Shown here: piece by piece, positions 25,510-39,060 of the stretch
How positions within the stretch are numbered: the first letter of the stretch is position 1
Layout of the letters: each line of letters starts with the position of its first letter
Notes under the pieces: generated by a model
The model's database searches: none
What the model was told of the DNA's origin: nothing
The model's input: only the letters and a program-made list of their open reading frames with translations
Source: Ignavibacteria bacterium RIFOXYC2_FULL_35_21
GTDB taxonomy: Bacteria > Bacteroidota > Ignavibacteria > Kapaibacteriales > UBA2268
Reading direction: 5' to 3'
Assembly: GCA_001804705.1 (NCBI GenBank)
Contig: MHAY01000007.1
Span: 1 to 41,140, forward strand
DNA length: 41,140 nt
Made by a program: the position numbers and the translations under genes

Positions 25510-25538
25510 AATAACAAAAAAATTTGCAAAATGTTACA
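25510..25538 (-). promoter_or_regulatory. candidate ECF-sigma promoter, copy 2
   Basis: Read on the minus strand: TGTAACA (25538-25532), exactly 16 nt, GTTATT (25515-25510). The same layout occurs at 31084-31112 and 36051-36079. A 42-nt leader would precede the propeller gene. Confidence 0.6.
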
Positions 25539-25566
25539 GTCAAAAAATAATTAATTTTAAAATACC

Positions 25567-25593
25567 CATTCGATGATAATAGACCATCGAATG
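25567..25593 (-). terminator. stem-loop after the Cys-rich gene
   Basis: CATTCGATG and CATCGAATG make a perfect 9-bp stem with a 9-nt loop, about 70 bp past the end of the Cys-rich gene. The T-rich sequence after it on the minus strand is weak, so it may be a terminator or a stabilising hairpin. An analogous hairpin follows the second Cys-rich gene (29099-29126). Confidence 0.5.
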
Positions 25594-25662
25594 AGTATAG
25601 ATTCATAATAAAATTCATCTCAATTTGAAAATTGAATTTTATTCTATTTCAAAATTTAAATT

Positions 25663-26259
25663 CTACTGACTACAAGGTGTTGATATAGGGAAACAATCCG
25701 TTGAATATCCTGGTTCAGGGTTAGGAGGCTCAGAACCTGAACAATTTTCTGTTTGGTTACACCAATAAGGGATTCCAACAGATATTGGTATTGGATTACC
25801 ATCTTGATAGCACCAATGTGTTTCCTGGCAACAATCATACGAATGACAATTGTGATAAATAATTGTACCATTGTCATTTTCTTTATTCCAACATTTTGAA
25901 TATGTCATTATAAGAACAATATAATCATTTAAGCCATTGCAAGGAGGTGGTACATTTCTACAAACTCCCCAAGAAAAAAAGTGTTCATATAAATAAGTCT
26001 CCAGAAAATTTATAAGATCATCAGTTCCCAATGACTCTGTACAGTTTGGGTTGATTTTATAAAATGCATCAATAATCAGACCTACCTGAGGGGCTGGCAT
26101 AACACATTTATAACAATAAATTACTTCATACTGACAATTACTTATAGGAGTATAAACTGTGAATGTTACAGATGTAAACCCATCCGGACAATCTGAATAA
26201 ACATTTGTGGTAAAACACAAGATAAATAATGCGACGATAGAAATTAAATACTTTTTCAT
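25663..26259 (-). CDS. exported cysteine-rich protein (module 1)
   Basis: This 198-residue protein of no recognised family has a clear Sec signal peptide (about 1-22, ending NVYSD). The mature part has 16 cysteines in about 176 residues, many paired (YDCCQ, IYCYKC), which suggests a disulphide-stabilised extracellular protein. There is no T9SS tail or lipobox. An AGGAG site precedes the ATG. It shares no obvious sequence with the Cys-rich protein at 29134, but it has the same position relative to the 155-bp block, the candidate small RNA and an AraC gene end. The function is unknown. Confidence 0.65.
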   Translation of the reverse strand: MKKYLISIVALFILCFTTNVYSDCPDGFTSVTFTVYTPISNCQYEVIYCYKCVMPAPQVGLIIDAFYKINPNCTESLGTDDLINFLETYLYEHFFSWGVCRNVPPPCNGLNDYIVLIMTYSKCWNKENDNGTIIYHNCHSYDCCQETHWCYQDGNPIPISVGIPYWCNQTENCSGSEPPNPEPGYSTDCFPISTPCSQ

Positions 26260-26301
26260 AATAAGTCTCCTAAAAAAAATTTACAAATATTAGTTAATTT
26301 G

Positions 26302-26397
26302 CAAATCAGCCTCGGTGCTGATTTATAGCCGTCATTGAGGCAGCAGTAATAAACCACTGCGGAGCCAACGAGCTTCACCTCGTTGGTTCTTTTTTTT
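26302..26397 (+). ncRNA. candidate small RNA, copy 1 (divergent from the Cys-rich gene)
   Basis: The plus strand between the Cys-rich gene and the 155-bp block has local hairpins (TCAGC/GCTGA at 26306-26321 or GCCTC/GAGGC; then GCAGT/ACTGC). It ends in a strong terminator with eight Ts. No plus-strand ORF is present, so the terminator implies a short transcript. The upstream AATTTGC is only a weak -7 match. The equivalent spot in module 2 has the same layout and a similar segment around AGCCGT. The 5' end is a guess. Confidence 0.4.
26362..26397 (+). terminator. strong intrinsic terminator, module 1
   Basis: GAGCCAACGAG, loop CTTCAC, CTCGTTGGTTC give an 11-bp stem (one G-T pair), followed by eight Ts. 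Confidence 0.8.
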
Positions 26398-26491
26398 ATG
26401 CTCTACAATGCTGCTGCATTGTGCCAATTTTATATTTTCCATAATCCTCCATCATTTGTTTAAACAATTTATTAATTTTTATATGTCTCAT
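26396..26491 (-). CDS. possible 31-residue small protein, module 1
   Basis: This 31-codon ORF starts MRHIKINKLFKQMMEDYGKY. Its counterpart at 29776-29880 shares the N-terminal 26 residues except five positions. It is basic, with no membrane segment. The stop overlaps the small-RNA terminator. The DNA upstream is more conserved between copies than the ORF, and all differences inside the ORF change amino acids, so it may not be translated. The ribosome site is weak. Confidence 0.25.
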   Translation of the reverse strand: MRHIKINKLFKQMMEDYGKYKIGTMQQHCRA

Positions 26492-26570
26492 TTCGCTGTG
26501 CTGTCCTTGCTTTTTTTGGTTATGTTATTATTGATAAATTTATTAATCTAACTCCTCAATCGAAATTTAC
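26415..26570. repeat. 155-bp conserved block, copy 1
   Basis: It matches 29804-29958 in the same orientation, with about 93 percent identity by eye. It lies between the AraC gene end and the terminator of the candidate small RNA in both modules. Confidence 0.9.
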
Positions 26571-26636
26571 ATTTTCTACATATATAAACCAAGTGGAATT
26601 TTCACCTGTAAAAATCGCCTGTAATTTTTCCGGATA

Positions 26637-26777
26637 CTATTTCCATAATTCATTTATTAAATTATCTATGATTTCAACCTTGTTGGTTGCACTCATAATT
26701 TTTGTTCTATGCTCTTCGAAAGTATTTCCCAAACGCCTTTTGAAAGCTTTTCGGAATGTGCGGAAGTGAGGGGGAAA
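26637..26777 (-). pseudogene. 3' remnant of an AraC-type regulator gene
   Basis: The frame encodes FRKAFKRRLGNTFEEHRTK and ends in LINELWK. This parallels the end of the intact AraC-type protein at 30026 (FQKAFKRRFKQNF to LINELWH). Upstream of about 26770 the sequence switches abruptly to the duplicated DUF1573 end, in the other orientation. Only the last helix of the DNA-binding domain is left, so it cannot act as a regulator. Confidence 0.8.
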
Positions 26778-26948
26778 GAAGGACAAATCCTGCTTAACGT
26801 CAATCTCAGCGGTTTGTTTGACGACAACAACATTGTGCAGTTCACAATCCACAGCAACGCAAAAAACTCACCCACAGGATTGAATATGACTATATTGCCT
26901 GCTGTCAAGGACAGCTTGGAGAAAAAGGAGAAGTGATTATATCATCGC
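26778..26948 (+). repeat. right copy of the 171-bp direct repeat (DUF1573 gene end)
   Basis: This is the second copy of 22858-23028. It holds the last 52 codons of a DUF1573 gene with no start or signal peptide, so it is a gene fragment. Its end forms the last four codons and stop of the convergent barrel gene at 26937. Confidence 0.93.
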
Positions 26949-27794
26949 AATAAATCCAAACCTGATATTTTGCTTGTATTGCAGTTCTCTCTTTTGCTTT
27001 TCATCATAGATAAAATCCGCTCTTAAAATCACACCGAAGTATTTCAGTATTTTGATTTGAAATTCATTTTCAAATTTGATTGACCATACATCCAAATTTT
27101 TGAAGGTGCCGAAAGAATCTAACAAGCCTTTGTAGAACACGACTGAATCAATATTAAAGTACGTTTCTGTTTTCCATTGAATACCCGATTCAGGTTTATA
27201 GGCTTCTTTAATATTTGTTGTTTTTAGGTCATCTGTTAATTTAGTATAAATTTCTGCCCTTGTCTGTTTGAGTGAAACACCGATTCGCGACAACAAAGAC
27301 AAATCGGTATAATAGCTGTAAGCCAAGCCGAAGCTTTCCTGCGAAATAACAGGGTCCCAAAAGGCAGAAGTTGGAGAAAGCCTTCCCTTGACATACATAA
27401 AACTTTCGGCTATTTGTGTCTCGACTGAAGAAGAAACAAAAGGGTCGAGAACCCAGCCTAATTGGTATCGAAGCACAATTTCACCATATATAACATTATC
27501 CGAGGGCCTAAGCTGAGCCGGAACACTGTCTGCAATCTTCTCGTAAAGGGCACCAAATGCAAACTTGTAATTAAGATTGATAAGCATTGTATCGAGACGC
27601 AATAAATTTTTTGTATCGAACGAGGAAGCCAGTTCAATTGATTTCACCTCACCCGTCCTCCAGTCGTTAATTGCAGACTGGGACAGGCTCAGGGAGAAGG
27701 TGGTTTGACTGTAAGTGTATGAAAAAAGGAAAAAAAATATAATGAATATAAAATATTTTTTATAAAAATGAATTTCATTACTTTTATTTTTCAT
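26937..27794 (-). CDS. outer membrane protein, DUF3078-like
   Basis: This 285-residue protein has a long hydrophobic signal sequence (about 10-31, ending YTYSQ) and a beta-barrel-like body. It opens with TFSLSLSQSAINDWRTGEV and ends with short amphipathic strands. The opening resembles DUF3078 outer-membrane proteins of Bacteroidota. The last codons and stop lie inside the duplicated 171-bp segment. The gene was probably the original convergent neighbour of the DUF1573 gene before the insertion. Confidence 0.65.
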   Translation of the reverse strand: MKNKSNEIHFYKKYFIFIIFFFLFSYTYSQTTFSLSLSQSAINDWRTGEVKSIELASSFDTKNLLRLDTMLINLNYKFAFGALYEKIADSVPAQLRPSDNVIYGEIVLRYQLGWVLDPFVSSSVETQIAESFMYVKGRLSPTSAFWDPVISQESFGLAYSYYTDLSLLSRIGVSLKQTRAEIYTKLTDDLKTTNIKEAYKPESGIQWKTETYFNIDSVVFYKGLLDSFGTFKNLDVWSIKFENEFQIKILKYFGVILRADFIYDEKQKRELQYKQNIRFGFIAMI

Positions 27795-27849
27795 TGTTCT
27801 TTATGTTCATAAAAAGATAATAATTCAAATTCTTAATAACATTTATGAT

Positions 27850-29046
27850 TTATTTTTTTTCAATTATCAATATTTCAATATTTTCTTTTTCCTTTCGCAG
27901 AAGCAATCCGTAATGTTTCATAAGATTATCTTTGACTTTTTCAATTCCACCTGATATATCAAAGGAAAAATTATATTTATAAGATGTTTTATAAACATTT
28001 ACAAAGGGAATTCCAAAGATATCTTCAAGATAAAAACTAAGAGCGTCTAGCGATGTATTTGCTGAGCTAAATAACGAATCAGAACTGCTTGAATGAGAAA
28101 TATTGTCATAATCTGATGGATTTACCTTATAAAGATTTAATTTTGTAGAGTCTGCACAGATAATTTTTTCAACATCAAATTGTTTTATTATTGTATCTAA
28201 TTTTAAATTGAAAATTGTTAAAAGTATATTTTTTAAAATTATCGAAGCCTTTTCGATATCATTATCAATTGAATTTAGGTAATTTAAATCCCAATTAATA
28301 GAATCCTTAAATATACATTCTAACCTTGTGGCATTAATGTTCAATAACTCTTGAAAAATATGACATAGTGGTTTATTAATATAATTGAAGACAACTCCAC
28401 TATCAGATATGTCTCTGAAACTTTTTGTCATATTAGTTGTTAATGAAGGTTTCATATTTATAAAAATTGAGTTCAAATTTTTTGCTCTAGTATTAATATT
28501 TTCAATTATTTTCTTCGAATCGGTAATATTACTTAATGGTTCTTTAGTATTAGGCACAGAAATATTTGAAATTTTTTCTATTATACTATCATTCAAAAGA
28601 ATTGGATGACCATCCCAAAGAATTTCATCTTTAGAGTTGATAATTATGATTCGTGGTATAGCTGTTACTTTAAATTTATTATGTAGCTCTTTTGTTGAAT
28701 CAAGAAAAATAAATGTTTCTAATTTCTTTCTTTTGAGGAATAGTTCGACAATTTTTCGCTTTTCAGGAGTTATGCTAATAAAAATTTTAGATTTATTATT
28801 GAATTTATTTGCTAACTTATTTATATGAGGAAATGAGGAAATGCATGGGGCGCACCATGTTGCCCAAAAATCAAGAATAAATATAGTGCTATCAGAATAT
28901 TGAGGTTTTGATTTTATCCAACTACTTTCTTTAAGAATTTCATAAATTTTCCTATCTTCATTCTGTAAATTCTGAATTGGTGCTGATAATATTTTCAATA
29001 TAAATAAAATATTGAGTAATGAAATGTATAAAATTATTTTTTTCAT
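27850..29046 (-). CDS. TlpA-like thioredoxin with C-terminal DUF3738-like region
   Basis: This 398-residue protein has an N-terminal signal or anchor (about 1-21). A TlpA/thioredoxin domain follows (about 35-165) with the redox motif WCAPC (Cys65, Cys68) and a cis-proline in AIPR. The rest (about 200-398) resembles the TIGR03435/DUF3738 region often fused to redoxins in Bacteroidota; this is a weaker call. It should act on disulphides in the periplasm. It lies downstream of an exported Cys-rich protein gene, which suggests it may reduce or shuffle that protein's disulphides. Confidence 0.72.
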   Translation of the reverse strand: MKKIILYISLLNILFILKILSAPIQNLQNEDRKIYEILKESSWIKSKPQYSDSTIFILDFWATWCAPCISSFPHINKLANKFNNKSKIFISITPEKRKIVELFLKRKKLETFIFLDSTKELHNKFKVTAIPRIIIINSKDEILWDGHPILLNDSIIEKISNISVPNTKEPLSNITDSKKIIENINTRAKNLNSIFINMKPSLTTNMTKSFRDISDSGVVFNYINKPLCHIFQELLNINATRLECIFKDSINWDLNYLNSIDNDIEKASIILKNILLTIFNLKLDTIIKQFDVEKIICADSTKLNLYKVNPSDYDNISHSSSSDSLFSSANTSLDALSFYLEDIFGIPFVNVYKTSYKYNFSFDISGGIEKVKDNLMKHYGLLLRKEKENIEILIIEKK

Positions 29047-29098
29047 TTTATTTACCTAACTAAAATATAAATCAATTCCTTACATATATTAAATATTT

Positions 29099-29126
29099 GG
29101 TAGATACCATCAAGATGGTATCTACC
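29099..29126. terminator. perfect 13-bp stem-loop after the second Cys-rich gene
   Basis: GGTAGATACCATC (29099-29111) pairs exactly with GATGGTATCTACC (29114-29126) across a 2-nt loop. Seven Ts follow on the plus strand; the minus side is AT-rich. It sits 8 bp past the Cys-rich gene, where it could terminate or stabilise that mRNA before the thioredoxin gene. Confidence 0.65.
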
Positions 29127-29133
29127 AATTTTT

Positions 29134-29616
29134 TTACTGATAAAAGCGATTTTGATCAACCCACTGGTCAAGAGCTGCTATTTCTAATCCTGACAATGCA
29201 GCTCGTTTTACCACATAATTATTTTCTGCGAGATTGAATTCTGTCTCATTCTGCTCATCAACAGCTTCAATTACCCAATCCAAAGCTGATACTAATTCAG
29301 TTGCTTCATTTGAATTTAAACTTTGAATAAAGGGCCTCAATTGATTAGTAAAATAATCTCTTTCACCATGTGCAAATATTGTTAATGTAAAAGATCCTCC
29401 TTCATCGCCCCCGGCCCCCCCTGGTGGGGGTGGAGGCACACATGTACATGATGGCGTTGTAGCTCCACCCATACATACTGCTATGTCTCCAGTAAGACAA
29501 CCTACTGAACAAGTTCTACCGTTATCAGCTCGTGCTGAACAACTCGTTTCTGAAATAAGTTCTAATGAAGATGATAAGAACATTACAAGAAGAATTAAAA
29601 TTACTGATAGTTTCAT
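29134..29616 (-). CDS. exported small cysteine-motif protein (module 2)
   Basis: This 160-residue protein has a signal peptide (about 1-22). A compact six-cysteine region follows (about 25-60: TSCSA, RTCSVGC, AVCMG, PSCTC), then a proline/glycine linker (PPPPPGGAGG). The C-terminal half is acidic and helical and has no cysteines. Cys-rich modules of this style occur in exported Bacteroidota proteins, but I recognise no named family. AGGTGA precedes the ATG. It is transcribed away from the candidate small RNA and is followed by a hairpin and the thioredoxin gene. Confidence 0.68.
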   Translation of the reverse strand: MKLSVILILLVMFLSSSLELISETSCSARADNGRTCSVGCLTGDIAVCMGGATTPSCTCVPPPPPGGAGGDEGGSFTLTIFAHGERDYFTNQLRPFIQSLNSNEATELVSALDWVIEAVDEQNETEFNLAENNYVVKRAALSGLEIAALDQWVDQNRFYQ

Positions 29617-29637
29617 ATTTTCACCTAAAAAATATTA

Positions 29638-29668
29638 TTGGAACAATATTAATTATATCTTATATTTG
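29638..29668 (+). promoter_or_regulatory. Bacteroidota-type promoter for candidate small RNA 2
   Basis: TTG (29638-29640), a 20-nt spacer and TATATTTG (29661-29668) fit the -33/-7 consensus. It faces away from the Cys-rich gene with only the terminated small transcript downstream. Confidence 0.5.
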
Positions 29669-29674
29669 CTCCTA

Positions 29675-29777
29675 CATCCTGCATATTTTTCTCGCAAGAT
29701 TTTGTATGCGGATTACAGCCGTTAGGCTATGAGCCGGCGGGAGAGCAAAATATGTAGCTCGTCGGCTCTTTTTTTTT
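29675..29777 (+). ncRNA. candidate small RNA, copy 2
   Basis: A plus-strand transcript of about 100 nt is predicted from the promoter at 29638-29668 to the nine-T terminator. It would contain a GCATA/TATGC stem (29681-29709), an AGCC-GTTA-GGCT hairpin (29717-29728) and the terminal 11-bp stem. Its counterpart at 26302-26397 has a similar order of stems and the shared AGCCGT, but low overall identity. No ORF is present. It could be an antisense or trans-acting regulator of the module. Confidence 0.48.
29731..29777 (+). terminator. strong intrinsic terminator, module 2
   Basis: GAGCCGGCGGG pairs with CTCGTCGGCTC (11 bp, two G-T) across a 16-nt loop, followed by nine Ts. Confidence 0.8.
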
Positions 29778-29880
29778 ATTTACTAATGCTCAGCAATATT
29801 AATTGCATTGTGCCAATTTTATATTTTCCATAATCCCCCATTATTAGTTTAAACACTATATTAATTTTTATATGTCTCAT
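29776..29880 (-). CDS. possible 34-residue small protein, module 2
   Basis: This 34-codon ORF starts MRHIKINIVFKLIMGDYGKY and is the paralogue of 26396-26491. After residue 26 the two diverge (here a hydrophobic LILLSISK end). The caveats are the same: it has a weak ribosome site and all nucleotide differences between copies are nonsynonymous. Confidence 0.25.
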   Translation of the reverse strand: MRHIKINIVFKLIMGDYGKYKIGTMQLILLSISK

Positions 29881-29958
29881 TTCGCTGTGCTGTCCTTGCT
29901 TTTCTGGTTATGTTATTATTGATAAATTTATTAATCTAACTCCTCAATCGAAATTTAC
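29804..29958. repeat. 155-bp conserved block, copy 2
   Basis: This is the direct-orientation partner of 26415-26570. The 79 bp upstream of the small ORF differ at about two positions only, and the ORF part at about six. Confidence 0.9.
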
Positions 29959-30025
29959 GATTTTATTCAATACCAGTCAAAAGTCATTTTCGCATATAAT
30001 TTTCGCATATAATTTTATTCGATTC

Positions 30026-30472
30026 TTAATGCCATAGCTCATTTATCAAATTCTTTATTAAAACATCTTTCTTAGAAGATTTTAATAATTTGGTTTTATA
30101 ACATATAAAATTTTGTTTGAATCTTCTTTTGAATGCTTTTTGAAAAGTCCCAATGTTATTATAACCACATTCATTTGCAACATCAATAATATTGTAGTTG
30201 TTCTTTTTTAAGGATATTAAAGCATGTTCGAGTCTTAAATTTTCAATTAATTTTTTGGGGGTGCATTTGAAGTATTTAACTGTCAGGAAGTTCAAATTCA
30301 TGGGAGTAATTGACAATTTTTCATGTAAATAATCCACATTGCACTCATATTTTAGGAAGTTGTCTTTTAAAGTTATTAATAGTTTTTTCAATTTTTCAGG
30401 GCAATGCCCATCCACGTTTATTTGGGCAGCACATCTTTTCGGTTTGCAATATTTACAAATTTCATTGAGCAT
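30026..30472 (-). CDS. AraC-type regulator with N-terminal cysteine cluster
   Basis: This 148-residue protein is a short, SoxS/MarA-sized AraC-type DNA-binding protein. It has two helix-turn-helix units, the second with the signature IDVANECGYNNIGTFQKAF. The first 24 residues hold four cysteines (C6, C9, C14, C24: CKYCKPKRC, then GHC), unlike a plain AraC domain, suggesting metal or redox sensing. It heads module 2 on the minus strand, upstream of the 155-bp block, small RNA region, Cys-rich gene and thioredoxin gene. It is probably the local regulator of that module. Confidence 0.75.
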   Translation of the reverse strand: MLNEICKYCKPKRCAAQINVDGHCPEKLKKLLITLKDNFLKYECNVDYLHEKLSITPMNLNFLTVKYFKCTPKKLIENLRLEHALISLKKNNYNIIDVANECGYNNIGTFQKAFKRRFKQNFICYKTKLLKSSKKDVLIKNLINELWH

Positions 30473-30757
30473 AAATCACATTCTTTTGTGCGTAAAAAAA
30501 ATCAAAATTTTCAATACTTTTTTAAAATTTGTCACCTTAATATGTATGTAGTTACTTTTTACAAAAAAAAAAGGCGGATTTTTCACACTTTTTTTGAAAA
30601 TAATTTTTATCGCCTTCGTAAGTCCTTTAAAACAACAAAACTATTTTTTCTACTATTTTCCCCACCAGGTTCAATCTTAGTGTTAATCTTATAATTTTAA
30701 TCACTATTGTCCGATATAAAAATTTAAAATTTTGAGAAATAGTATTATTTTCATAGG

Positions 30758-30952
30758 GTTCCCCCTTAAAAAAGGGAGTTAGGGGGTTGTTTTTCAATTT
30801 TACAGATGTTCCCAACATAATGTGAATTTTAATGATTATGCAAACAATATACAAAGATAAAATAATTATGAAACACAAGTACAGTTCTTAATTTTCGAAC
30901 AATGACGAAATAAATAATAAACAACCCCCTAAACCCTTTTTTAAGGGGGAAC
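30758..30952. repeat. 195-bp element with near-perfect inverted ends
   Basis: GTTCCCCCTTAAAAAAGGG at 30758 recurs inverted at the right end (30914-30952), with about 37 bp in each arm and few differences. The core is AT-rich without an ORF. The arms resemble the CCCCCTTT/AAAGGGGG hairpin at 15199. It looks like a small non-autonomous element (MITE-like). Confidence 0.65.
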
Positions 30953-31083
30953 TTTTTTCGGACAACAATAAATTTTAATAACAAAGTATTAAATTATTTA
31001 GTTAAAAGAATCTATCAACTAATATGTCTATATATGAAAAAAGCAAAATTTGGGTTATATTTTTTATTTTTTTTTAAATTGAC

Positions 31084-31112
31084 TGTAACATTTTTGGTTT
31101 TTTTTTGTTATT
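31084..31112 (+). promoter_or_regulatory. candidate ECF-sigma promoter, copy 1 (autoregulation)
   Basis: TGTAACA (31084-31090), 16 nt, GTTATT (31107-31112), just upstream of the sigma gene ATG at 31124. If these are -35 and -10 boxes, the transcript would be almost leaderless (about 5 nt). Identical layout occurs at 25510-25538 and 36051-36079. Confidence 0.6.
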
Positions 31113-31123
31113 GCATATAGAAG

Positions 31124-31684
31124 ATGGACAGGGAATTCGAAAACCTTAGCGATACGGAACTCTTCATACTGCTGACGACCGATGAATCAAGGGCGGGCAA
31201 GGCGTTTGAGGAGATATACACGAGGCATTCCCCCCGTGTGTTTGCCTATTGCCAACGTTTTCTTGGCAACAGGGAAGAAGCTGAGGACGTTTTTCAGGAA
31301 ACCTTTATCCGTTTTTATAACAGCAGGTTCAAAACGCGTAAGATGTCGAACCTTGCGGCTTTCCTGCTCAAAATAGCACGAAACCAGTGCGTTAATGCAA
31401 TAAGGGAGCATAAGCACGAAGCTCGTTATAATGATGAAATTATGATTAGGCATGACGAAAGTGATGAAACTGATGAATTGCTTAATTTGATTAAAATGGC
31501 TATCGAGCTTCTGCCGGATGAATATAAGGAAATATTTATTATGAGAGAATATAACGGATTGAAATATACTGATATTGCCTATATAACAAATCAGTCAATT
31601 AATACCGTTAAGGTAAAAATTTTCAGGGCAAGGGAAAGAATCAGGCAAATCCTTCAGCCCTATTTATCGGAAATGTCGAAATAA
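31124..31684 (+). CDS. ECF RNA polymerase sigma factor
   Basis: This 186-residue protein has sigma region 2 (about 25-95: FEEIYTRHSPRVFAYCQRFL, EAEDVFQETFIRFY) and region 4 (about 125-182: LLPDEYKEIFIMREYNGLKY, then the helix-turn-helix IAYITNQSINTVKVKIFRAR). This is the compact two-domain form of extracytoplasmic-function sigma factors. The next gene, 27 bp on, encodes its likely anti-sigma factor. No ribosome site is visible, which fits a near-leaderless start. The promoter motif it probably recognises lies just upstream and before two T9SS-tagged protein genes. T9SS control by an ECF sigma (SigP) is known in Porphyromonas; the parallel is inferred. Confidence 0.92.
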   Translation: MDREFENLSDTELFILLTTDESRAGKAFEEIYTRHSPRVFAYCQRFLGNREEAEDVFQETFIRFYNSRFKTRKMSNLAAFLLKIARNQCVNAIREHKHEARYNDEIMIRHDESDETDELLNLIKMAIELLPDEYKEIFIMREYNGLKYTDIAYITNQSINTVKVKIFRARERIRQILQPYLSEMSK

Positions 31685-31711
31685 TTATTATTATTTATAG
31701 ATGATTCAATT

Positions 31712-32944
31712 ATGGAAGAAATAAACGGAAACACAGCATCGGAATTATTGAACCTCCTCATTGACGGGGAGCTCGAAAGCAGTCAGGAAGTTTCTCTTTA
31801 TGCTTCATTGACCGAAAATGACGAATTAAGGAACGAAATGAGGGAATTGCTCGCTATTCGTGAATCAATTCACAAGGATACCGAAGCATTCACTCCTCCT
31901 CGAACCACGAAAAGAGCCGTTTTAACGGCTGTGGGGCTTACTCCCGGGGCAGTTGCTAATGCGCCTATAACCCAGGTCGCTATTCAAGCCGGCTTTTGGA
32001 GCGGCTTTTGGGCGAAAGTCTGGGTGCCTGTAGTTTCCGCCGTGGTTGCGACAATTATTACTTCCTTATTGTTTCTTAATTTCTATGACACCGGAAAAAC
32101 CGTTTCTTCATCAGGAAGTGTATTAAAGAAAATTCCGGTGGTGAGTTCTTCAGAAAAAGTTGCACCTGAAAAACCGGCAAATATATTAAGCACAAACGGA
32201 ATTAATAAATCTATAAGGAAAAATAGAAATATTGGAATAACAAATGCTTCGCGTGTTGTTCCTGCACCCAATGTCATATATAATGAAGACTATATCAGCA
32301 GCGATAATCAAACGATTCAGCCGATTGAGACTGCTTCCCTCGGAACTGAAATATATAAGACGAACAGCCTGAACTATTCCGAATCAAGAAATATTGGTAT
32401 TCCTGTTATAGCACTTACTCCAAATCAATTTTCATCATTAAATCGAGGGAAATTGTCCGGCCTCGATATTACATTAATACTCAGGGGTATCTCAGCCAAG
32501 TCATACCCAACGGTTTACATGCCTTCACAATGGAATCCTATAATTTCTAATTTTAGTTTAGGAGGCTATGTTACTTTGGTTGACGGATTGGATGTCGGTA
32601 TGGAAGCCGGATTGGAGAATTTTGGGCTTGTTTATTTCAATTATGAAACGATTAGGATTGACAAGAAGAATCCATTTTTATATTGGGCAGGAATCGGTTT
32701 GAAAGGTCAAATAACAAAGCATATTGAATTACTTGCAGGAGCTAAACCTTATGCACAGGTTTTTGTTGGCGGCACAAACATTGGCCCAAACATTAGAATG
32801 GCTGGCGGCTTGGAATATAGCTGGGACAACGGCTTAGGGTTTATTATCGGAATCGAAGGCAGTTCACTATTCTACAATGTTCAGGATAATTGGTACTCGA
32901 CTGAAAAACTCGGGTTCACTTACGGGGTGTTGTATAGCTTCTAA
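31712..32944 (+). CDS. anti-sigma-like protein spanning inner membrane, with C-terminal barrel-like domain
   Basis: This 410-residue protein starts with a helical segment (about 5-60, ELLNLLIDGELESSQE) typical of anti-sigma cytoplasmic ends; the zinc His/Cys motif is absent. A single membrane helix lies at about 103-125, then a low-complexity linker (126-245). The last approximately 160 residues are alternating beta strands ending in phenylalanine (VLYSF), like an outer-membrane barrel. This matches the dual membrane-spanning anti-sigma (Dma) proteins described in Bacteroides thetaiotaomicron. It could carry an outer-membrane signal directly to the sigma factor. The topology is inferred by eye. 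Confidence 0.72.
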   Translation: MEEINGNTASELLNLLIDGELESSQEVSLYASLTENDELRNEMRELLAIRESIHKDTEAFTPPRTTKRAVLTAVGLTPGAVANAPITQVAIQAGFWSGFWAKVWVPVVSAVVATIITSLLFLNFYDTGKTVSSSGSVLKKIPVVSSSEKVAPEKPANILSTNGINKSIRKNRNIGITNASRVVPAPNVIYNEDYISSDNQTIQPIETASLGTEIYKTNSLNYSESRNIGIPVIALTPNQFSSLNRGKLSGLDITLILRGISAKSYPTVYMPSQWNPIISNFSLGGYVTLVDGLDVGMEAGLENFGLVYFNYETIRIDKKNPFLYWAGIGLKGQITKHIELLAGAKPYAQVFVGGTNIGPNIRMAGGLEYSWDNGLGFIIGIEGSSLFYNVQDNWYSTEKLGFTYGVLYSF

Positions 32945-32966
32945 TGTATGAGTAATTTTGAAGTTA

Positions 32967-33536
32967 ATGAAAAATAAAATTATCATATTAATCATATTAG
33001 CTTTGACAGGAACTTTTATTCTGTTTTCCTGCAAATCGCCTATGGATATTGATTCTCCTAATGATTTTGAACCGATTGCGAATAGGATAATTCCCGGCCA
33101 GACAGATATTATTTTTGATGAAAACGGCGAACAGATTTCTTTAGTAGTCAGAAGTACATCAGTACAAATTGATACGTCGAACCATATTCCTTATGTATGG
33201 ATTGATTTTGTTTTTGAAGCCAACCAGAACTTTACAAATTATCAGGACAGTTTATGTATTTCACAATTTTCCATTAAGCTGGATTCCCTGCCAATTATTC
33301 CGTTTATTGATGACACTCTCGGCAGCCCCTCAGAAGGTTCCTGGTCTTGTTTTATTATTAGTAGCGGTGCGTCAGCCGATACATTATTTTCCGGTGAGGA
33401 TAGGAACTTAACGAGAGTCTCCTTCACCTTTGATAAAGGAAGAAAAGAAATGAAAGCATTTATTTATGCAAGTCTGATTAAGAAACAACCATCGGTTACA
33501 AGCGATTTCAGGGCAACATTCACGTTTCTGTATTAG
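32967..33536 (+). CDS. hypothetical lipoprotein
   Basis: This 189-residue protein (from ATG at 32967; a TTG nine bases upstream is less likely) has a lipoprotein signal ending in a lipobox, FILFSC, with Cys22-24 as the lipidated residue. The mature part is beta-rich, acidic and of no family that I recognise. It is 22 bp downstream of the anti-sigma-like gene and likely in the same operon, so it may be part of the envelope signal. Confidence 0.7.
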   Translation: MKNKIIILIILALTGTFILFSCKSPMDIDSPNDFEPIANRIIPGQTDIIFDENGEQISLVVRSTSVQIDTSNHIPYVWIDFVFEANQNFTNYQDSLCISQFSIKLDSLPIIPFIDDTLGSPSEGSWSCFIISSGASADTLFSGEDRNLTRVSFTFDKGRKEMKAFIYASLIKKQPSVTSDFRATFTFLY

Positions 33537-33579
33537 CAATTATTGCAAAAAAAAATCCAACACTCAACACTCAACACTT

Positions 33580-34230
33580 TTATTTCAGCACCACAAAGGG
33601 CTTGGAGTAATGCCTGCCGTTCAATTCAAGTACGGCGAAATAGACTCCTCCGGATAATGCCGAGACATCGAGCTGAATGTTATTGCCATTTATTTTTGTA
33701 TGTGATATTGTCCCTGTCATATCCTCGCCAAAGCAATTGAATAGCTGAAAGTTTCTGCATAAACCTGCTTCGGAGAAGCTTATAGTACAGTTGGTGGTGG
33801 CAGGATTGGGAGAAATCCTGATATTATCAGTATTGACGGGCTTCTCGGCAACATCACTATGAGGTGAGGAACCCTCATAAATCGGGAAAAATGTTTCTGA
33901 AAATTGATATAAAGCACTATCGGGTTGCTCAATCTTCACTCTGAAATTGAAGCCTGTGGGATGATTTTCAGGTATTACCCAGTCGTATTCACCGAGTGAT
34001 GCCTGCACACTTGTATCAATTGTGGTGAAAGTAGCGGAAGTCATGTCCCATAAATATATATTGACAGTATTATGGAAATAAGCTGTGTCCCATTTTATTG
34101 TTTTGGTTGTGTTCTGCCGCCAGAACTCACCGTTCTCACCGCCGTTGGGGTTGAACTCTGCATATAGTATTCCTGTCATTAATAATGAGAGGGAAAAAAT
34201 AACGAGTAGTTTTGCAATTGAATTTTTCAT
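33580..34230 (-). CDS. small T9SS-tagged secreted protein
   Basis: This protein of 216 residues from the ATG at 34230 has a signal peptide (to about YAEF) and a Kre9/KNH-like beta-sandwich (PNGGENGEFWRQNTTKTIKWD, SLGEYDWVIPEN) of the Ser/Thr-rich membrane-anchor family. It ends with a T9SS sorting domain (ISPNPATTNCTISF, GGVYFAVLELNG, ending VVLK). The ATG start is chosen over the GTG at 34242 because AAGGTGAGG lies just upstream. It is convergent with the lipoprotein gene. A surface role is inferred. Confidence 0.8.
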   Translation of the reverse strand: MKNSIAKLLVIFSLSLLMTGILYAEFNPNGGENGEFWRQNTTKTIKWDTAYFHNTVNIYLWDMTSATFTTIDTSVQASLGEYDWVIPENHPTGFNFRVKIEQPDSALYQFSETFFPIYEGSSPHSDVAEKPVNTDNIRISPNPATTNCTISFSEAGLCRNFQLFNCFGEDMTGTISHTKINGNNIQLDVSALSGGVYFAVLELNGRHYSKPFVVLK

Positions 34231-34575
34231 TTTGAACCTCACCTTATAATTAAATTTTCAATTTTCAATTTTATAATTTTCAATTTAGTCTGTTAGCTGT
34301 TTAGACTGTTAGTCTGTTAGCGATATAAATTTTCAATATCCACAATTCCTAATTCCTAATTTTCACTAACAACTTCCAACTTCGTTCTTCCGTCTTTTTT
34401 CTATTACATTTTTTCTATTTTCTTTTTGCTATTTTCTATCTTCCGTCTTCCGTCTTCCAGCTTCCGTCTTCCGTCTTCCGTCTTCCGTCTTCCGTCTTCC
34501 GTCTTCCGTCTTCCGTCTTCCGTCTTCCGTCTTCCAGCTTCCAACTTTTCCAATTTCTCATTCCTAATTCCTAAT
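34231..34575. other. gene-free gap with simple repeats
   Basis: This gap has runs of AATTTTCAA and TCTGTTAG-type repeats (34255-34340) and an ATTCCTA repeat at both ends. It also holds the heptamer array described separately. A plus-strand frame through the array reads only as FRLPSSV-type repeats and is rejected as a gene. Confidence 0.7.
34440..34537. repeat. 14-copy CTTCCGT heptanucleotide array
   Basis: Fourteen 7-bp units: 12 are CTTCCGT and two are CTTCCAG (third and last); a degraded unit follows. It is non-coding and lies about 40 bp from the end of the gene at 34576. Confidence 0.92.
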
Positions 34576-35823
34576 TCACTTCACAATCACCAGAGGAATT
34601 GTTTCTACAATTTCATTTATGTTTATTTTAACATAATAATAGCCCTGCGGCAGTATTTCGCAATTTATCGTTTTTTCGTTTGTGCCTTCGGCGCTTTGCA
34701 GCTTTTGGCTGAAAACACAGTTGCCAAGCAAATCGAATATATTTATTTGCACTATTGTTTCAATCGGCGAGTGAAACCTTAATCTAAATTCATCCGAAGC
34801 GGGATTGGGTTCGATTTTAATTTCAATTTTTTGCTCTTGCTCTTTTACATCTGTAATACCCAGGTCACTCAGTTTTGCTCTGAATACACCTTTGGAAAGA
34901 GTACCTGCGAAAATATAATTTCCATTTATTATTATTGATGAAACTCCATCCGTTATTCCTGAATATTTTGGAATCCAAGAATTCCCATTGTCTGTGGATA
35001 CATATACACCAACACCACTTGCAAAAATATAATTTCCCTTAATATATAAATAAACAACAAAAGTATCTTTAAAACTAAGATGTTTCCAATTATCACCATT
35101 GTCAGTAGATAAAAATATACCTTCAGACACAGCACCCGCAAAAATATTATCACCATTAACTGCTAAGGAGAATACCTTACTTTTCCACATTCCTATATTT
35201 TTAGCAATCCAATTATCTCCGTTGTCAGATGTCATATAAACACCGTACCTTGTGCCAGCAAAAATATTATTACCATTTACAGCCAATGAATAAACTTCTT
35301 TATTTGCTTTAAACTCAAGTAAACCATTGTTTTTTATTGTCCAATTATTTCCATAGTCGGTGGACAGATAAAATCCATTTATTGTATCTCTTTCTCCATA
35401 AGTGCCGGCATAAATATTTGATCCGTTTATTATTAATGAACCAACAACTTCCTTAAATAATGTATCCATACTAACAAGGTATGGTAATCCTTTACTTTTA
35501 CGTTCCCAATTTTCACCTTTATCAGTTGAACGATATATCCCACTCATGTTTGAACCTGCAAAAATATAATTACCACTTAATGCTAATGACTCAATAGGGG
35601 ACATCTGCCAATCAATTATTCCATTATTTTTGACGAGCCAATTATCTCCATTGTCAGTTGACATAAATATGCCAGCACCATTACCTGTATAAATATTAAA
35701 ACCATCAGCTGCAAAGCCACCAATGCCACTACCTTCAAGACCGCTACCACAAGGCACCCATTGTGCATTTACGTGAATTGAAAACATTAGAGTTGTCAGC
35801 ATGAATAAAGCAAGCTTTTTCAT
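34576..35823 (-). CDS. secreted YCF48/sialidase-like propeller with T9SS tail
   Basis: This protein of 415 residues from the MKK start (an ATG 12 bp upstream is also in frame) has a signal peptide to about HVNAQ. At least six repeats have the form NNIFAGTRYGVYMTSDNGDNW, each a propeller blade of the photosystem stability/BNR type. The end is a type A T9SS sorting domain (EPNPASDEF, GNCVFSQKL, ending LVIVK). It is predicted at the cell surface. The TGTAACA/GTTATT motif at 36051-36079 faces this gene, leaving a 228-nt leader. Neither start has a clear ribosome site. Confidence 0.83.
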   Translation of the reverse strand: MKKLALFMLTTLMFSIHVNAQWVPCGSGLEGSGIGGFAADGFNIYTGNGAGIFMSTDNGDNWLVKNNGIIDWQMSPIESLALSGNYIFAGSNMSGIYRSTDKGENWERKSKGLPYLVSMDTLFKEVVGSLIINGSNIYAGTYGERDTINGFYLSTDYGNNWTIKNNGLLEFKANKEVYSLAVNGNNIFAGTRYGVYMTSDNGDNWIAKNIGMWKSKVFSLAVNGDNIFAGAVSEGIFLSTDNGDNWKHLSFKDTFVVYLYIKGNYIFASGVGVYVSTDNGNSWIPKYSGITDGVSSIIINGNYIFAGTLSKGVFRAKLSDLGITDVKEQEQKIEIKIEPNPASDEFRLRFHSPIETIVQINIFDLLGNCVFSQKLQSAEGTNEKTINCEILPQGYYYVKININEIVETIPLVIVK

Positions 35824-35835
35824 AATCGAATCCAT

Positions 35836-36252
35836 TTTTTTGAGAAATATATTATATATAAAATTTTTTCTTTTCTCAAATCGCTGATGCGAATACCCTT
35901 CATTTGGGCAATTCTTGAATTGCCCCTACAACCAAAAATCCAATACCGAAATGTCAATCTTATAAACCAAAATCAAATACGCATCAATAATATATATAAA
36001 GACACATGAAACCAAAAAAAGTTTCAGAAAATCTAACTATTATTTACTGTAATAACAAAAAAAATTGCAAAATGTTACAGTAAATTTAATATATTTTTTC
36101 AAATCTGTCTGTATTTACTTCTGATAGTGCCATGTAATTCATTATTGCTCACTTATGTTCTGCAACTTTTTCTCTCTTTTCGTGTTATTTGTCATAAAGC
36201 AAGTAATAAATTTTCAGTAATTATAAATGAACAACAAATTGAGGAGAGTATT
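35836..36252. other. divergent control region between two T9SS cargo genes
   Basis: No gene. It contains a 20-bp hairpin (GGGCAATTC-TT-GAATTGCCC, 35906-35925, followed by a common bacterial CCCTACAACC end) and the candidate ECF-sigma motif. The motif is nearly palindromic (ACTGTAA and TTACAGT at its ends) and could serve both genes. Confidence 0.65.
36051..36079 (-). promoter_or_regulatory. candidate ECF-sigma promoter, copy 3
   Basis: On the minus strand: TGTAACA (36079-36073), 16 nt, GTTATT (36056-36051). It is the same as copies at 31084 and 25510 and faces the propeller gene; its inverted ends could also act for the gene at 36253. Confidence 0.55.
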
Positions 36253-39060
36253 ATGAAAAAATTTAATAACTATTTCGGAGCATTTTTTGCGGCTGCTTTA
36301 ATGCTGCTGCTCACAGGTTCTTTTGCCTCTTATGCAATTGATGCACCCAACCCGCCGCAAAACCTGACAGCAGAATTGGACAGCACCGGTAAGGAAATTG
36401 CCGTAAAGCTCAGTTGGGAAAGAGATACGACAGGCACACAACCTAACTATTTCTTTATATATATGGCTCCAAAAGACAGCGATGACCCTAATGATTTCAG
36501 CTATATTGCAAAAGTACAAAATCAACACAATCAGCATAATTTCCATTTCCTGGTTCATCACCTCGATAACGGACATTACTCTTTCTATGTAACAGCAGTT
36601 CTTTATCACGAGAATCAGAAACTCGAAAGCAGCCCATCGAATATCGTGAAGATTGAAATGGTGCAGAGGCCCTATGTGCATGTAAAACCGGCAGAAACGT
36701 TACGGGGAATCATGGGTTTGACTTTTACTTTTACCGTGAAAGCCGAAAGTAATGTTGACTGTCCGATACTTTTTGAACTGGTTGATGGGCCCGACGGCAT
36801 GACGATAGACCAGAGCTTAGGCTTAGTAACATGGATACCTTTGGCAAACGGGAAATTCAGTTTTAAAGTGAAAGCATGGCTCGAATGTGATGCGAGTGTA
36901 ACAGGTTATGGCGAATTTAAGATTCAGGTTGGAAACGATGATAACCACAAGCCTTTTGTTCACATCGTTTCTAAACCCAACGAAAGAGGAATGCCCGGCG
37001 AGCCTTATATATACGAAGTAAAAGCCGAATCGAATATAAATTGCCCTATTCTTTTTGAATTGTTACCCGAACATCCGGATGGAATGGAAATCAACAGCCA
37101 AACCGGTGTAATAACATGGACACCTGGCTCTATCGGCTACTATCATGTGGGTGTGAGGGTTTTCCTCGAATGTCAGCCTGATGTCTATGCGAAACAGGTA
37201 TTCACAATCAGGGTAGGCGATGACAGCAATTTTGCTTTTATTAAAATTACGTCTAAGCCAAATCTACATGCAAAACCAAATTCGGAGTATGAGTACGAAG
37301 TTGAAGCAGAATCGAATATTGACTGCAATATAATATATGAATTGCTTGAAGGTCCGGATGGAATGACAATGGATTCAACCGGAAAAGTCACCTGGCACAC
37401 ACCTGCTAATGGCACTTTCCCTGTGGCTGTTAAGGCAACATTAGAGTGCAGGCTTGATATTTCATTTACGCAAAGATTTACAATTAAAGTCGGCGAGGGT
37501 GATGATAAGCCGTTCTGTGCTTTGATTCAGGGACCTGCCACTTTTGAAAACGGCGACAGCGTAAAAGAAGGTGTCGTCAAGGCTGTGAAATTAGATTCAA
37601 ATTCGAAGGAACACCCATTATATGTCGGTCAAATTAAAAATGGAGAGTTCTCGGTCAGAGTTAACGAGGGAACCTACATACTTAAATTCTCGGGTCCGCA
37701 TTTTAAAGAAGAGTGGTATGAAAATGCAAGCTCAATGGACTCTGCAACCAGAGTGCCTGTTGTTTGCGGCGATACCATAACATTGAATGTCGTTCTCGAC
37801 AAACTACCCGAACCGAAGCATTTCACAGTAACAGGCAAAGTTGTGGCAGAATCCGATAGTACCGGAATATATGCTAATGTCGAGTTCATTCCCGTTGAAA
37901 AGATGCACGGAAGGGAAGGCAATGAAGACAGTAAGAATGCTTTCCATACAAAGACAGATGGCCAGGGGAATTATGAAATATCATTGCCCAATACTTTCTC
38001 ATATATAGCCCATGCTATCCATATGTCTGACGATAGAAAGTATGCCGGCCAATACTATGACCAGGTGTCAGACCCGCTCGAAGCAGACATTATCGTGTTG
38101 ACCGGTGATTTATCAGGTATTGATTTCTACCTTAAAGCTATTGAAGAGAAGAATAATGGATTCAGCGGCGTAGTTGTTGATGATTTCGGTGTCGGAATCA
38201 GGGCAAGAGTAATTGCTCACCTGGTTAGTTCCAATGAACACAATAAAAGATTTAATAAAACCGTCGAGACTGACGAGCAGGGTAATTTTACTTTCTCAAA
38301 CATGCTTGTCGGAAAATATGTTCTTCTGTCAATTCCTTATGAGAAAACATTAGTTCCCGGTTATTATAAGTTGAATGACTTTGTTGTGCATAAATGGCGT
38401 GATGCGACAAGAATTGAAGTCGGCGATTCAATCGGAGCTTCAATCGTAATCAAGCATAATGTCAGAACCGGTATTCTCGGTGTAGCACATGTAAATGGAA
38501 ACATAACATCAGGAACATTGTCAATCGGTAAATCAGGAGATGAGACACAATCAGGAGAGCCTGTTGCCGGAGCATTCGTTTATGTTCTCGATGAAAATGG
38601 CGATGTCAGCGATTATATTTTCAGCGATAACTCAGGCAACTTTGAGCTTTCGGAGCTGGGTGTCGGCACATATACACTCGTTGCAGACAAAGTAGGTTAC
38701 CTTACTTATGAACAGGAAGTTACAACCGATTATGAAACAAAATCAAATGTATCGCTCGACTTCTCGATGACAGAACAACCGACTGATGTTACAGATGAAA
38801 CAATCAATGTTAATGATGCTGTTATTTACCCATCGCCTGTCGAATCGAAAGCAACGATTAAGTTTAATTCATCCGAAGGGACCGGAAAACTTCTATTATA
38901 CGGTTCAAATGGCATGCAGCTTGAAGTCCGCAGTGTTCAGACAGTTGAAGGTGAAAATCAAATTGAACTGAACATGAGCAATTTACCAACAGGAGCATAT
39001 TTTGTGAGAATAATTACTCATAACAGAATCATAACAGTACCTGTGAGAGTTGTGAGATAA
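36253..39060 (+). CDS. large multi-domain T9SS-tagged surface protein
   Basis: This protein has 935 residues from the ATG with GAGGAG upstream; an upstream in-frame start is rejected because it precedes that site and the signal peptide (about 1-29). Order: a fibronectin-III-like domain (about 31-135), three tandem repeats of about 95 residues, then about four carboxypeptidase-regulatory-like beta domains, then a T9SS sorting domain (YPSPVESKATIKF, ending VPVRVVR). The repeats are cadherin/Ig-like (AESNVDCPILFEL, GMTIDQSLGLVTW, with paired cysteines in each). It is likely a structural or adhesive surface protein. It is divergent from the propeller gene and ends in a terminator. Confidence 0.83.
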   Translation: MKKFNNYFGAFFAAALMLLLTGSFASYAIDAPNPPQNLTAELDSTGKEIAVKLSWERDTTGTQPNYFFIYMAPKDSDDPNDFSYIAKVQNQHNQHNFHFLVHHLDNGHYSFYVTAVLYHENQKLESSPSNIVKIEMVQRPYVHVKPAETLRGIMGLTFTFTVKAESNVDCPILFELVDGPDGMTIDQSLGLVTWIPLANGKFSFKVKAWLECDASVTGYGEFKIQVGNDDNHKPFVHIVSKPNERGMPGEPYIYEVKAESNINCPILFELLPEHPDGMEINSQTGVITWTPGSIGYYHVGVRVFLECQPDVYAKQVFTIRVGDDSNFAFIKITSKPNLHAKPNSEYEYEVEAESNIDCNIIYELLEGPDGMTMDSTGKVTWHTPANGTFPVAVKATLECRLDISFTQRFTIKVGEGDDKPFCALIQGPATFENGDSVKEGVVKAVKLDSNSKEHPLYVGQIKNGEFSVRVNEGTYILKFSGPHFKEEWYENASSMDSATRVPVVCGDTITLNVVLDKLPEPKHFTVTGKVVAESDSTGIYANVEFIPVEKMHGREGNEDSKNAFHTKTDGQGNYEISLPNTFSYIAHAIHMSDDRKYAGQYYDQVSDPLEADIIVLTGDLSGIDFYLKAIEEKNNGFSGVVVDDFGVGIRARVIAHLVSSNEHNKRFNKTVETDEQGNFTFSNMLVGKYVLLSIPYEKTLVPGYYKLNDFVVHKWRDATRIEVGDSIGASIVIKHNVRTGILGVAHVNGNITSGTLSIGKSGDETQSGEPVAGAFVYVLDENGDVSDYIFSDNSGNFELSELGVGTYTLVADKVGYLTYEQEVTTDYETKSNVSLDFSMTEQPTDVTDETINVNDAVIYPSPVESKATIKFNSSEGTGKLLLYGSNGMQLEVRSVQTVEGENQIELNMSNLPTGAYFVRIITHNRIITVPVRVVR

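Follow-up and report, generated by a model that had tools for sequence, protein, structure and literature searches.

A candidate ECF sigma factor promoter motif before type IX secretion cargo genes in an uncultured Ignavibacteria bacterium

Introduction

How Bacteroidota choose among their many type IX secretion system (T9SS) cargo proteins is little known, and the published control by extracytoplasmic function (ECF) sigma factors that we found concerns the secretion machinery. In Porphyromonas gingivalis, SigP is reported to work with a two-component system on genes for T9SS components, porT among them (PMC4800418; PMC8265659), and a study of Flavobacterium psychrophilum reports ECF control of T9SS component genes (PMC9723704). 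A 41,140-nt stretch of the genome of Ignavibacteria bacterium RIFOXYC2_FULL_35_21 (contig MHAY01000007.1, here C7, positions 1-41140, in a 4.15-Mb genome of 105 contigs; hereafter the window) raises the question of what a bipartite motif, TGTAACA-N16-GTTATT, does in front of both an ECF sigma gene and two T9SS cargo genes. Our analysis suggests, with a probability of roughly 0.8, that this element (motif 1) is the -35/-10 promoter of that ECF sigma factor, driving its own operon as well as cargo genes. The features of the window are collected in Table 1.

Table 1. Features of the window discussed in the text.
Feature	Position	Strand	Remarks
Motif 1, before sigma operon	31084-31112	+	exact; -35 TGTAACA 31084-31090, N16, -10 GTTATT 31107-31112; proposed sigma-operon promoter
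Motif 1, before 785-aa gene	25510-25538	-	exact; 42 nt from ATG of the 785-residue cargo gene
Motif 1, before 419-aa gene	36051-36079	-	exact; 215 nt from first ATG of the 419-residue (or 415-residue) cargo gene
Motif 2	36002-36026	-	TGAAACTTTTTTTGGTTTCATGTGT, next base C; promoter-like, downstream of the 36051 site on the same strand
Motif-3 variant	36161-36189	+	TGCAAC-N15-GTGTTATT; 63 nt before the 935-aa ATG; two-mismatch relative of motif 1
ECF sigma factor, 186 aa	31124-31684	+	Sigma70_r2 2.4e-17, Sigma70_r4_2 1e-14
Dma-like anti-sigma factor (predicted), 410 aa	31712-32944	+	weak NCBIfam match, AlphaFold2 model, Foldseek, ortholog layout
Third operon gene (probable), 192 aa	32958-33536	+	lipoprotein-like by eye (LFSC)
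T9SS cargo gene, 785 aa	23110-25467	-	C-terminal Por_Secre_tail; PF18962 29.3 bits (cut-off 27), TIGR04183 24.1 (cut-off 23)
T9SS cargo gene, 419 aa	34576-35835	-	propeller-type repeats; PF18962 50.1 bits; Sortilin-Vps10 38.6 bits
Divergent T9SS cargo gene, 935 aa from ATG 36253	36253-39060	+	CarboxypepD_reg, He_PIG, Por_Secre_tail 39.5 bits; domains scanned on the longer GTG frame 36127-39060
Cargo-type gene, 220 aa	33580-34242	-	Por_Secre_tail 34.9 bits
AraC-type gene	30026-30472		near the sigma operon
164-bp element	30496-30659		between AraC-type gene and sigma operon
Inverted repeat	30758-30952		37-38-nt arms
Promoter plus leader	35840-36082		shared with other cargo loci

Results

Motif 1 in the window and across the genome

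An exact search of the window for TGTAACA-N14..18-GTTATT returned exactly three matches, every one with a 16-nt spacer and all sharing ACTGTAACATTTT, just as a preliminary description of this stretch had stated; 100 dinucleotide shuffles of the window gave a mean of 0.01 matches and never reached three. The same description found no fourth exact copy, which holds for the window, while the genome as a whole has 31 matches with spacers of N15-17 (27 with N16, three with N15 and one with N17), against two for the reversed pattern that served as the control for genome motif counts. The three N15 matches lie inside long open reading frames (ORFs) on the same strand, and the remaining 28 lie outside long ORFs, save one over a 135-codon ORF on the opposite strand. 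The random scatter in coding DNA that the preliminary description had named as counting against its proposal was thus not seen, with 28 of 31 exact matches outside long same-strand ORFs. An extended 32-nt pattern, allowing up to three mismatches, gave 30 matches in the genome and none for the control. Together, the 27 exact N16 matches, the one N17 match and six extra sites from the extended-pattern search form the set of 34 sites used below. Only one of these overlaps an ORF of at least 100 codons (C56:21467, the opposite-strand case), and we discount this overlap, as the related genes of three congeneric genomes (G001, G002 and G003) also have a motif-1 site in front.

The 33 sites with the N16 spacer share the consensus aCTGTAACAtTTT.c.atTTTTTtTGTTATTACa, in which the only positions independent of how the sites were selected are the C before, the AC after, the T-runs and the C at position 12. 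AAC is present in the -35 element of 32 of the 33, mostly by selection, and AAC-N17-GT is the geometry of E. coli RpoE promoters. The housekeeping -7 box is TAnnTTTG (PMC9723704). A housekeeping promoter was rejected, as this box was not found in the 59-110 nt searched between motif 1 and the start codon at the 33 N16 sites, with shuffles giving 4.87.

The same observation bears on whether motif 1, rather than being a sigma factor promoter, could be an operator bound by a regulator such as the AraC-type protein encoded near the sigma operon, or by one not seen here. Some sites do extend to an imperfect dyad, ACTGTAA...TTACAGT. However, the right half is followed by TTACAGT in just 5 of 33 sites, which led us to reject the operator as the principal explanation, the two halves of the motif differ in sequence, and the sites of paralogous sigma genes match it in geometry though not in letters. 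An operator would also leave the genes without a recognizable housekeeping box in the stretch searched. We consider an operator quite improbable, and retain the reading of motif 1 as an ECF promoter.

The sigma gene and its own motif

The product of the sigma gene matches PF04542 and PF08281 (PF04545 overlaps region 4) with no match to region 3, which is the domain pattern of an ECF sigma factor. The best NCBIfam model, NF058625, scores 116.9 bits and falls under its cut-off of 130; the superfamily model TIGR02937 passes (95.1 bits, cut-off 42.9). The window's site lies 11 nt before the sigma ATG. Sixty genomes were searched for relatives of this sigma factor, and the best-matching sigma genes were taken from 30 of them, our own included. 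Relatives of the sigma gene at 77-85% identity have been deposited in metagenome-assembled genomes under the names Bacteroidetes bacterium and Ignavibacteriae bacterium. In 22 of the 30 genomes, TG[TA]AAC-N17-GTTA[TA][TA], a strict form of the motif, is present upstream of the sigma gene at no more than 100 nt from the chosen ATG; 1000 base shuffles averaged 0.005 and never exceeded one. The motif ends 2-11 nt before the sigma ATG in 20 of these 22 genomes, and 26 and 28 nt before it in the other two. In other ECF promoters, transcription starts 5-8 nt after the -10 element; if this applies here, the sigma mRNA is probably leaderless or nearly so, given how close the motif ends to the ATG. For the genes behind sites other than the sigma's, the gap from motif to ATG is at least 30 nt.

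The genome holds 17 matches to this sigma factor, representing 16 ECF-like genes (two matches fall in one frame), and a listed motif-1 site precedes only this one among the 16. Autoregulation of the sigma gene combined with control of T9SS cargo, as put forward in the preliminary description, is supported, by computation only, through genome-wide enrichment, cargo association, position and phylogenetic footprinting.

Genes behind motif 1

A sorting domain was called where Por_Secre_tail matched at E≤3e-4. The genome scan that the preliminary description had suggested bore out its expectation of T9SS-tagged genes: by this threshold, a gene with the domain (PF18962/TIGR04183) follows 22 of the 34 sites, and at 18 of the 22 its score also exceeds the Pfam cut-off. 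The regulon is not a compact one of neighbouring genes, as had been thought, with 34 sites genome-wide and some genes lacking the domain. The other 12 sites comprise the sigma gene itself, four that meet a contig end (two IgGFc-binding-domain genes on C46, and sites on C102 and C81) and seven without a sorting domain. These seven are a 176-aa product (C2), a 449-aa product (C3), an FGE-sulfatase-domain protein (C56), degenerate-looking loci on C83 and C105, short ORFs on C77 and a 259-aa GH20-type ORF near a contig end (C1); by eye, the C2 and C56 products are lipoprotein-like. In the domain scan, motif-1 products without the sorting domain were L121, L135 and L142 (no match at all), and L122, L131 and L143. 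Extra domains in the motif-1 cargo include propeller-type repeats, IgGFc-binding, arylsulfotransferase, Omp28, VWA and DUF3160 domains. No T9SS component genes were found among the 28+2 motif-1 products scanned, with three of the 34 sites giving no product to scan.

At least 150 sorting-domain loci exist in the genome (150 of 296 candidates scored), most of them without a listed motif-1 site before them. Leaving out the sigma gene and the four cut sites, the hypergeometric probability of at least 22 of 29 is 2e-18, taking 296 domain genes among an assumed (estimated) total of 3,400. The 30 products outside the sigma operon form 13 similarity groups, eight of which have the domain (P=3e-6).

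This grouping matters for another explanation, in which duplicated genes or mobile cassettes carried the common upstream sequence from place to place and it marks no regulon. Many of the cargo genes are paralogous, and a longer leader is indeed common to several sites, for example at 86% over 198 nt between the promoter-plus-leader region of the window and a locus on C10. Yet many sites match that leader over just 33-44 nt around the motif, the motif is present in all 13 similarity groups, and it stands before related genes of congeners (many at 45-84% protein identity) and before cargo genes of two other genera. Spread by copying appears highly improbable, and promoter function remains the reading we favour.

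The leaders themselves deserve a brief description. The promoter-plus-leader region of the window recurs at otherwise different cargo loci: L124 (86% over 198 nt), L139 (81% over 175 nt), L122 (84% over 142 nt) and L141 (81% over 94 nt). By eye, some leader copies hold an extra stretch of about 130 nt flanked by TTGATGC and GCATCA, and others do not. Also by eye, L135 and L142 have a common leader and a common signal-peptide start, MKTKFFLC, and then diverge, as if promoter, leader and signal peptide travelled together.

The regulon in relatives

Motif-1 counts in the four members of the genus are 27, 12, 16 and 13, with none for the control. Elsewhere in the family, G018 has eight (one for the control), G019 has 17 (none for the control) and the remaining members have 0-4; the 24 genomes of other families have four matches against 19 for the control, 17 of these in one genome. 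Cargo calls in congeners and other genera, as well as those for motif 2 below, used a hidden Markov model built here from 18 regulon members. With this model, a sorting-domain gene lies behind motif 1 at 7 of 11 sites examined in G001 (12 exist), at 10 of 16 in G002 (three others are open at a contig or stretch end) and at 9 of 13 in G003. For the other genera, the figures are 9 of 17 in G019 (4 of 4 in one set of sites and 5 of 13 in a second), where two of the 17 sites overlap long ORFs, and 7 of 8 in G018, where a contig end truncates the eighth. Two genes that lack the domain likewise keep their motif-1 site in congeners, the 176-aa one in G001 and G003 and the FGE-sulfatase one in G001, G002 and G003. 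Given the 0-4 sites elsewhere, a large cargo set is a trait of this genus and at least two others, and not of the whole family.

A Dma-like anti-sigma partner

An ORF for a putative anti-sigma factor lies directly behind the sigma gene in 28 of 30 loci, 27 of them complete, and loci L099 and L112 end soon after sigma. The 410-aa product in the window has no Pfam match and a weak NCBIfam anti-sigma match (1.6e-4, 21.7 bits against a cut-off of 100). An AlphaFold2 model based on 27 orthologs has a mean predicted local distance difference test score (pLDDT) of 67 and a predicted TM-score of 0.41, with the barrel blocks mostly at 85-95. It comprises helices at 9-74, a long helix at 95-125, which we propose as an inner-membrane span, a low-confidence tether at about 126-248, almost wholly under pLDDT 50, and a beta-barrel at 253-409. 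The top Foldseek match for the barrel is NspA (E 9e-5, TM-score 0.59 by target length), followed by FadL, OpcA, OmpA and, at E 1e-3, OprF, all of them outer-membrane barrels. Outer-membrane barrels often end in phenylalanine, and a C-terminal phenylalanine is present in 23 of the 27 anti-sigma orthologs. The layout is retained in all 27 full-length orthologs.

The Dma ("dual membrane-spanning anti-sigma") family of Bacteroides, as described in PMC13088901, combines an anti-sigma domain, a membrane helix, a disordered tether and a C-terminal beta-barrel. From its architecture and its sigma-adjacent position, the 410-aa product is predicted to share this arrangement. The preliminary description mentioned neither this gene nor the second, paralogous sigma/promoter system described below.

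Motif 2, motif 3 and paralogous sigma systems

The preliminary inventory of sites missed two related ones in the window, motif 2 and the motif-3 variant. Motif 2 (TGAGACC...TGTGTC) was first noticed as a shared element downstream of motif 1, and has 40 matches in the genome with up to three mismatches, against none for the control. Of 39 sites examined, 21 precede a sorting-domain gene, amounting to 20 distinct genes, four of which also carry motif 1 (on C7, C10, C27 and C65); both motifs occur at nine loci (C3, C7, C10, C27, C65, C77, C81, C83 and C105). A hairpin reading of motif 2 (TGAAAC/GTTTCA) was rejected, since matches at two or three mismatches mostly keep TGAGACC and TGTGT, and not GTTTCA. 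An operon on C49 has a motif-2 site 24 nt ahead of its first gene, which encodes a 374-aa protein with a weak TolB-propeller match; next come a sigma gene, a gene whose 468-aa product is, by eye, a Dma-like anti-sigma factor, and one for 233 aa. The sigma factor of this operon is 45% identical to that of the window. In each of the three congeners too, a motif-2 site lies about 1.2 kb upstream of the C49-type sigma on the same strand, the genes in between having been read in our own genome only.

The preliminary description placed the 36051 site before the 415-residue gene, divergent from the 935-residue gene. That placing before the 419/415-residue gene stands; the 935-residue gene has a different promoter variant. 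This variant is kept in all four genus members examined, with small changes in the three congeners, and resembles the promoter of a third sigma gene, on contig C13. The core TGCAWC-N15-GTGTTAWT has eight genome matches against none for the control; one belongs to the C13 sigma gene, one to its divergent neighbour and one to the 935-aa gene, which leaves five elsewhere. The long form of the C13-sigma motif was rejected as a regulon mark, its one genome match being itself, and because of this the assignment of motif 3 is weaker than those of motifs 1 and 2. The C81-sigma motif was likewise set aside: it is kept in 4/4 genus members, but its sole genome match (up to three mismatches) is itself.

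The existence of such paralogous systems raises the alternative that motif 1 is a promoter read by one or more paralogous ECF sigma factors, with the neighbouring sigma gene just one target. By eye, the genome has about six sigma/Dma-like pairs, and in both motif 1 and motif 2 the -10 element GT(T/C)ATT begins 23 nt downstream of the T that opens the -35. The nine loci with both motifs and the geometry common to motifs 1, 2 and 3 fit such a scheme. Against it, no other sigma gene of the genome has a listed motif-1 site before it, in other genera the motif goes with the best matches to this one, and three paralogous sigma genes have other sites of their own, conserved within the genus. We therefore regard reading by a paralog as unlikely, and assign motif 1 to the sigma factor encoded next to it.

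Discussion

Several observations weigh against this assignment and the regulon drawn from it. The strict motif is absent before 8 of the 30 sigma genes, and most other genomes of the family retain a relative of the sigma factor yet have so few sites. Seven of the 34 sites have no sorting-domain gene behind them, two of these being lipoprotein-like and conserved in congeners and two degenerate-looking. Many of the cargo genes are paralogs, as the collapse of 30 products into 13 groups with eight bearing the domain shows, and the background for cargo frequency is all genes, in an assumed number, rather than secreted genes alone. Most of the 34 sites were picked by motif letters, so that their common spacing is not independent evidence. 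Finally, cross-recognition among the paralogous motifs may be possible because they share geometry.

With these reservations, a mechanism can be proposed. At rest, the sigma factor would be held by the anti-sigma factor encoded directly behind it, whose N-terminal helices would bind sigma in the cytoplasm, while the single long helix would cross the inner membrane and the disordered tether would reach a beta-barrel that forms the C-terminus and sits in the outer membrane. Some change there or at the cell surface would free sigma, which would then transcribe its own operon from a nearly leaderless start as well as surface-protein genes across the genome, mostly T9SS cargo and some lipoprotein-like. 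The C49 sigma/Dma-like pair would do likewise via motif 2, with a second, partly overlapping cargo set. Computation shows the sites, their location outside long ORFs, the cargo domains, the conservation ahead of the sigma gene and the predicted anti-sigma architecture; we infer the binding of the motif by sigma, the location of the transcription start, the outer-membrane position of the barrel and the signal. If so, the choice of surface proteins in this uncultured bacterium may fall to one sensor that seems to reach across both membranes. More tentatively, with somewhat less than even odds, T9SS cargo in this clade could be split among parallel, distinct channels, each made up of an ECF sigma factor that reads a -35/-10 code of its own and a membrane-bridging anti-sigma factor, such that the state of the outer membrane selects the surface proteins, two-promoter loci integrate two channels and the sensing operon is switched on from a leaderless start.

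Among known systems, a close likeness is to the Dma/Das pairs of Bacteroides, in which a sigma gene also sits beside an anti-sigma gene with the same succession of domain, membrane helix, tether and beta-barrel. In B. thetaiotaomicron, Das1/Das2 are reported to affect vesicle formation, nigD1 and the expression of polysaccharide utilization loci (PMC13088901), whereas the promoter motif here points to T9SS cargo; the terms "type ix" and "motif" have no occurrences in the main text of that paper. The PorX/PorY-SigP system of P. gingivalis, as reported, is similar in tying an ECF sigma factor to the type IX system, but in our genome it is cargo genes that lie behind the motif, a Dma-like anti-sigma gene stands next to the sigma gene, and the sigma gene bears the motif itself. 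The SM6 promoters of F. psychrophilum (PMC9723704) likewise form an ECF-type class, with an ECF sigma/anti-sigma operon and T9SS genes among its members. No Dma-type sigma controlling T9SS cargo was found among the literature titles and abstract beginnings searched, a coverage that leaves out most subscription papers. ECF sigma factors with a Dma anti-sigma are already known; what appears to be new is that they serve cargo genes, along with the parallel promoter codes.

A promoter code before dozens of cargo genes, coupled to an anti-sigma factor that appears to reach the outer membrane, would be a mechanism for matching the supply of surface proteins to the state of the outer membrane, and such a code allows regulons to be predicted from sequence in uncultured genomes. 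If true, it would also give the Dma family, which in Bacteroides has so far been linked to vesicles and the use of glycans, a part in protein secretion.

Other genes and repeats in the window

The 192-aa gene behind the anti-sigma gene probably belongs to the sigma operon, and no family matched it in profile scans. The window search gave no exact motif-1 site before the 220-aa cargo-type gene. The 164-bp element is 85% identical to L238:1953-2115, a copy that sits upstream of another sigma/Dma-like pair, on contig C99. The arms of the inverted repeat are 112-121 nt apart and 78-79% complementary, of the CCCCCTTAAAAAAGGG type, and the whole looks like a small mobile element.

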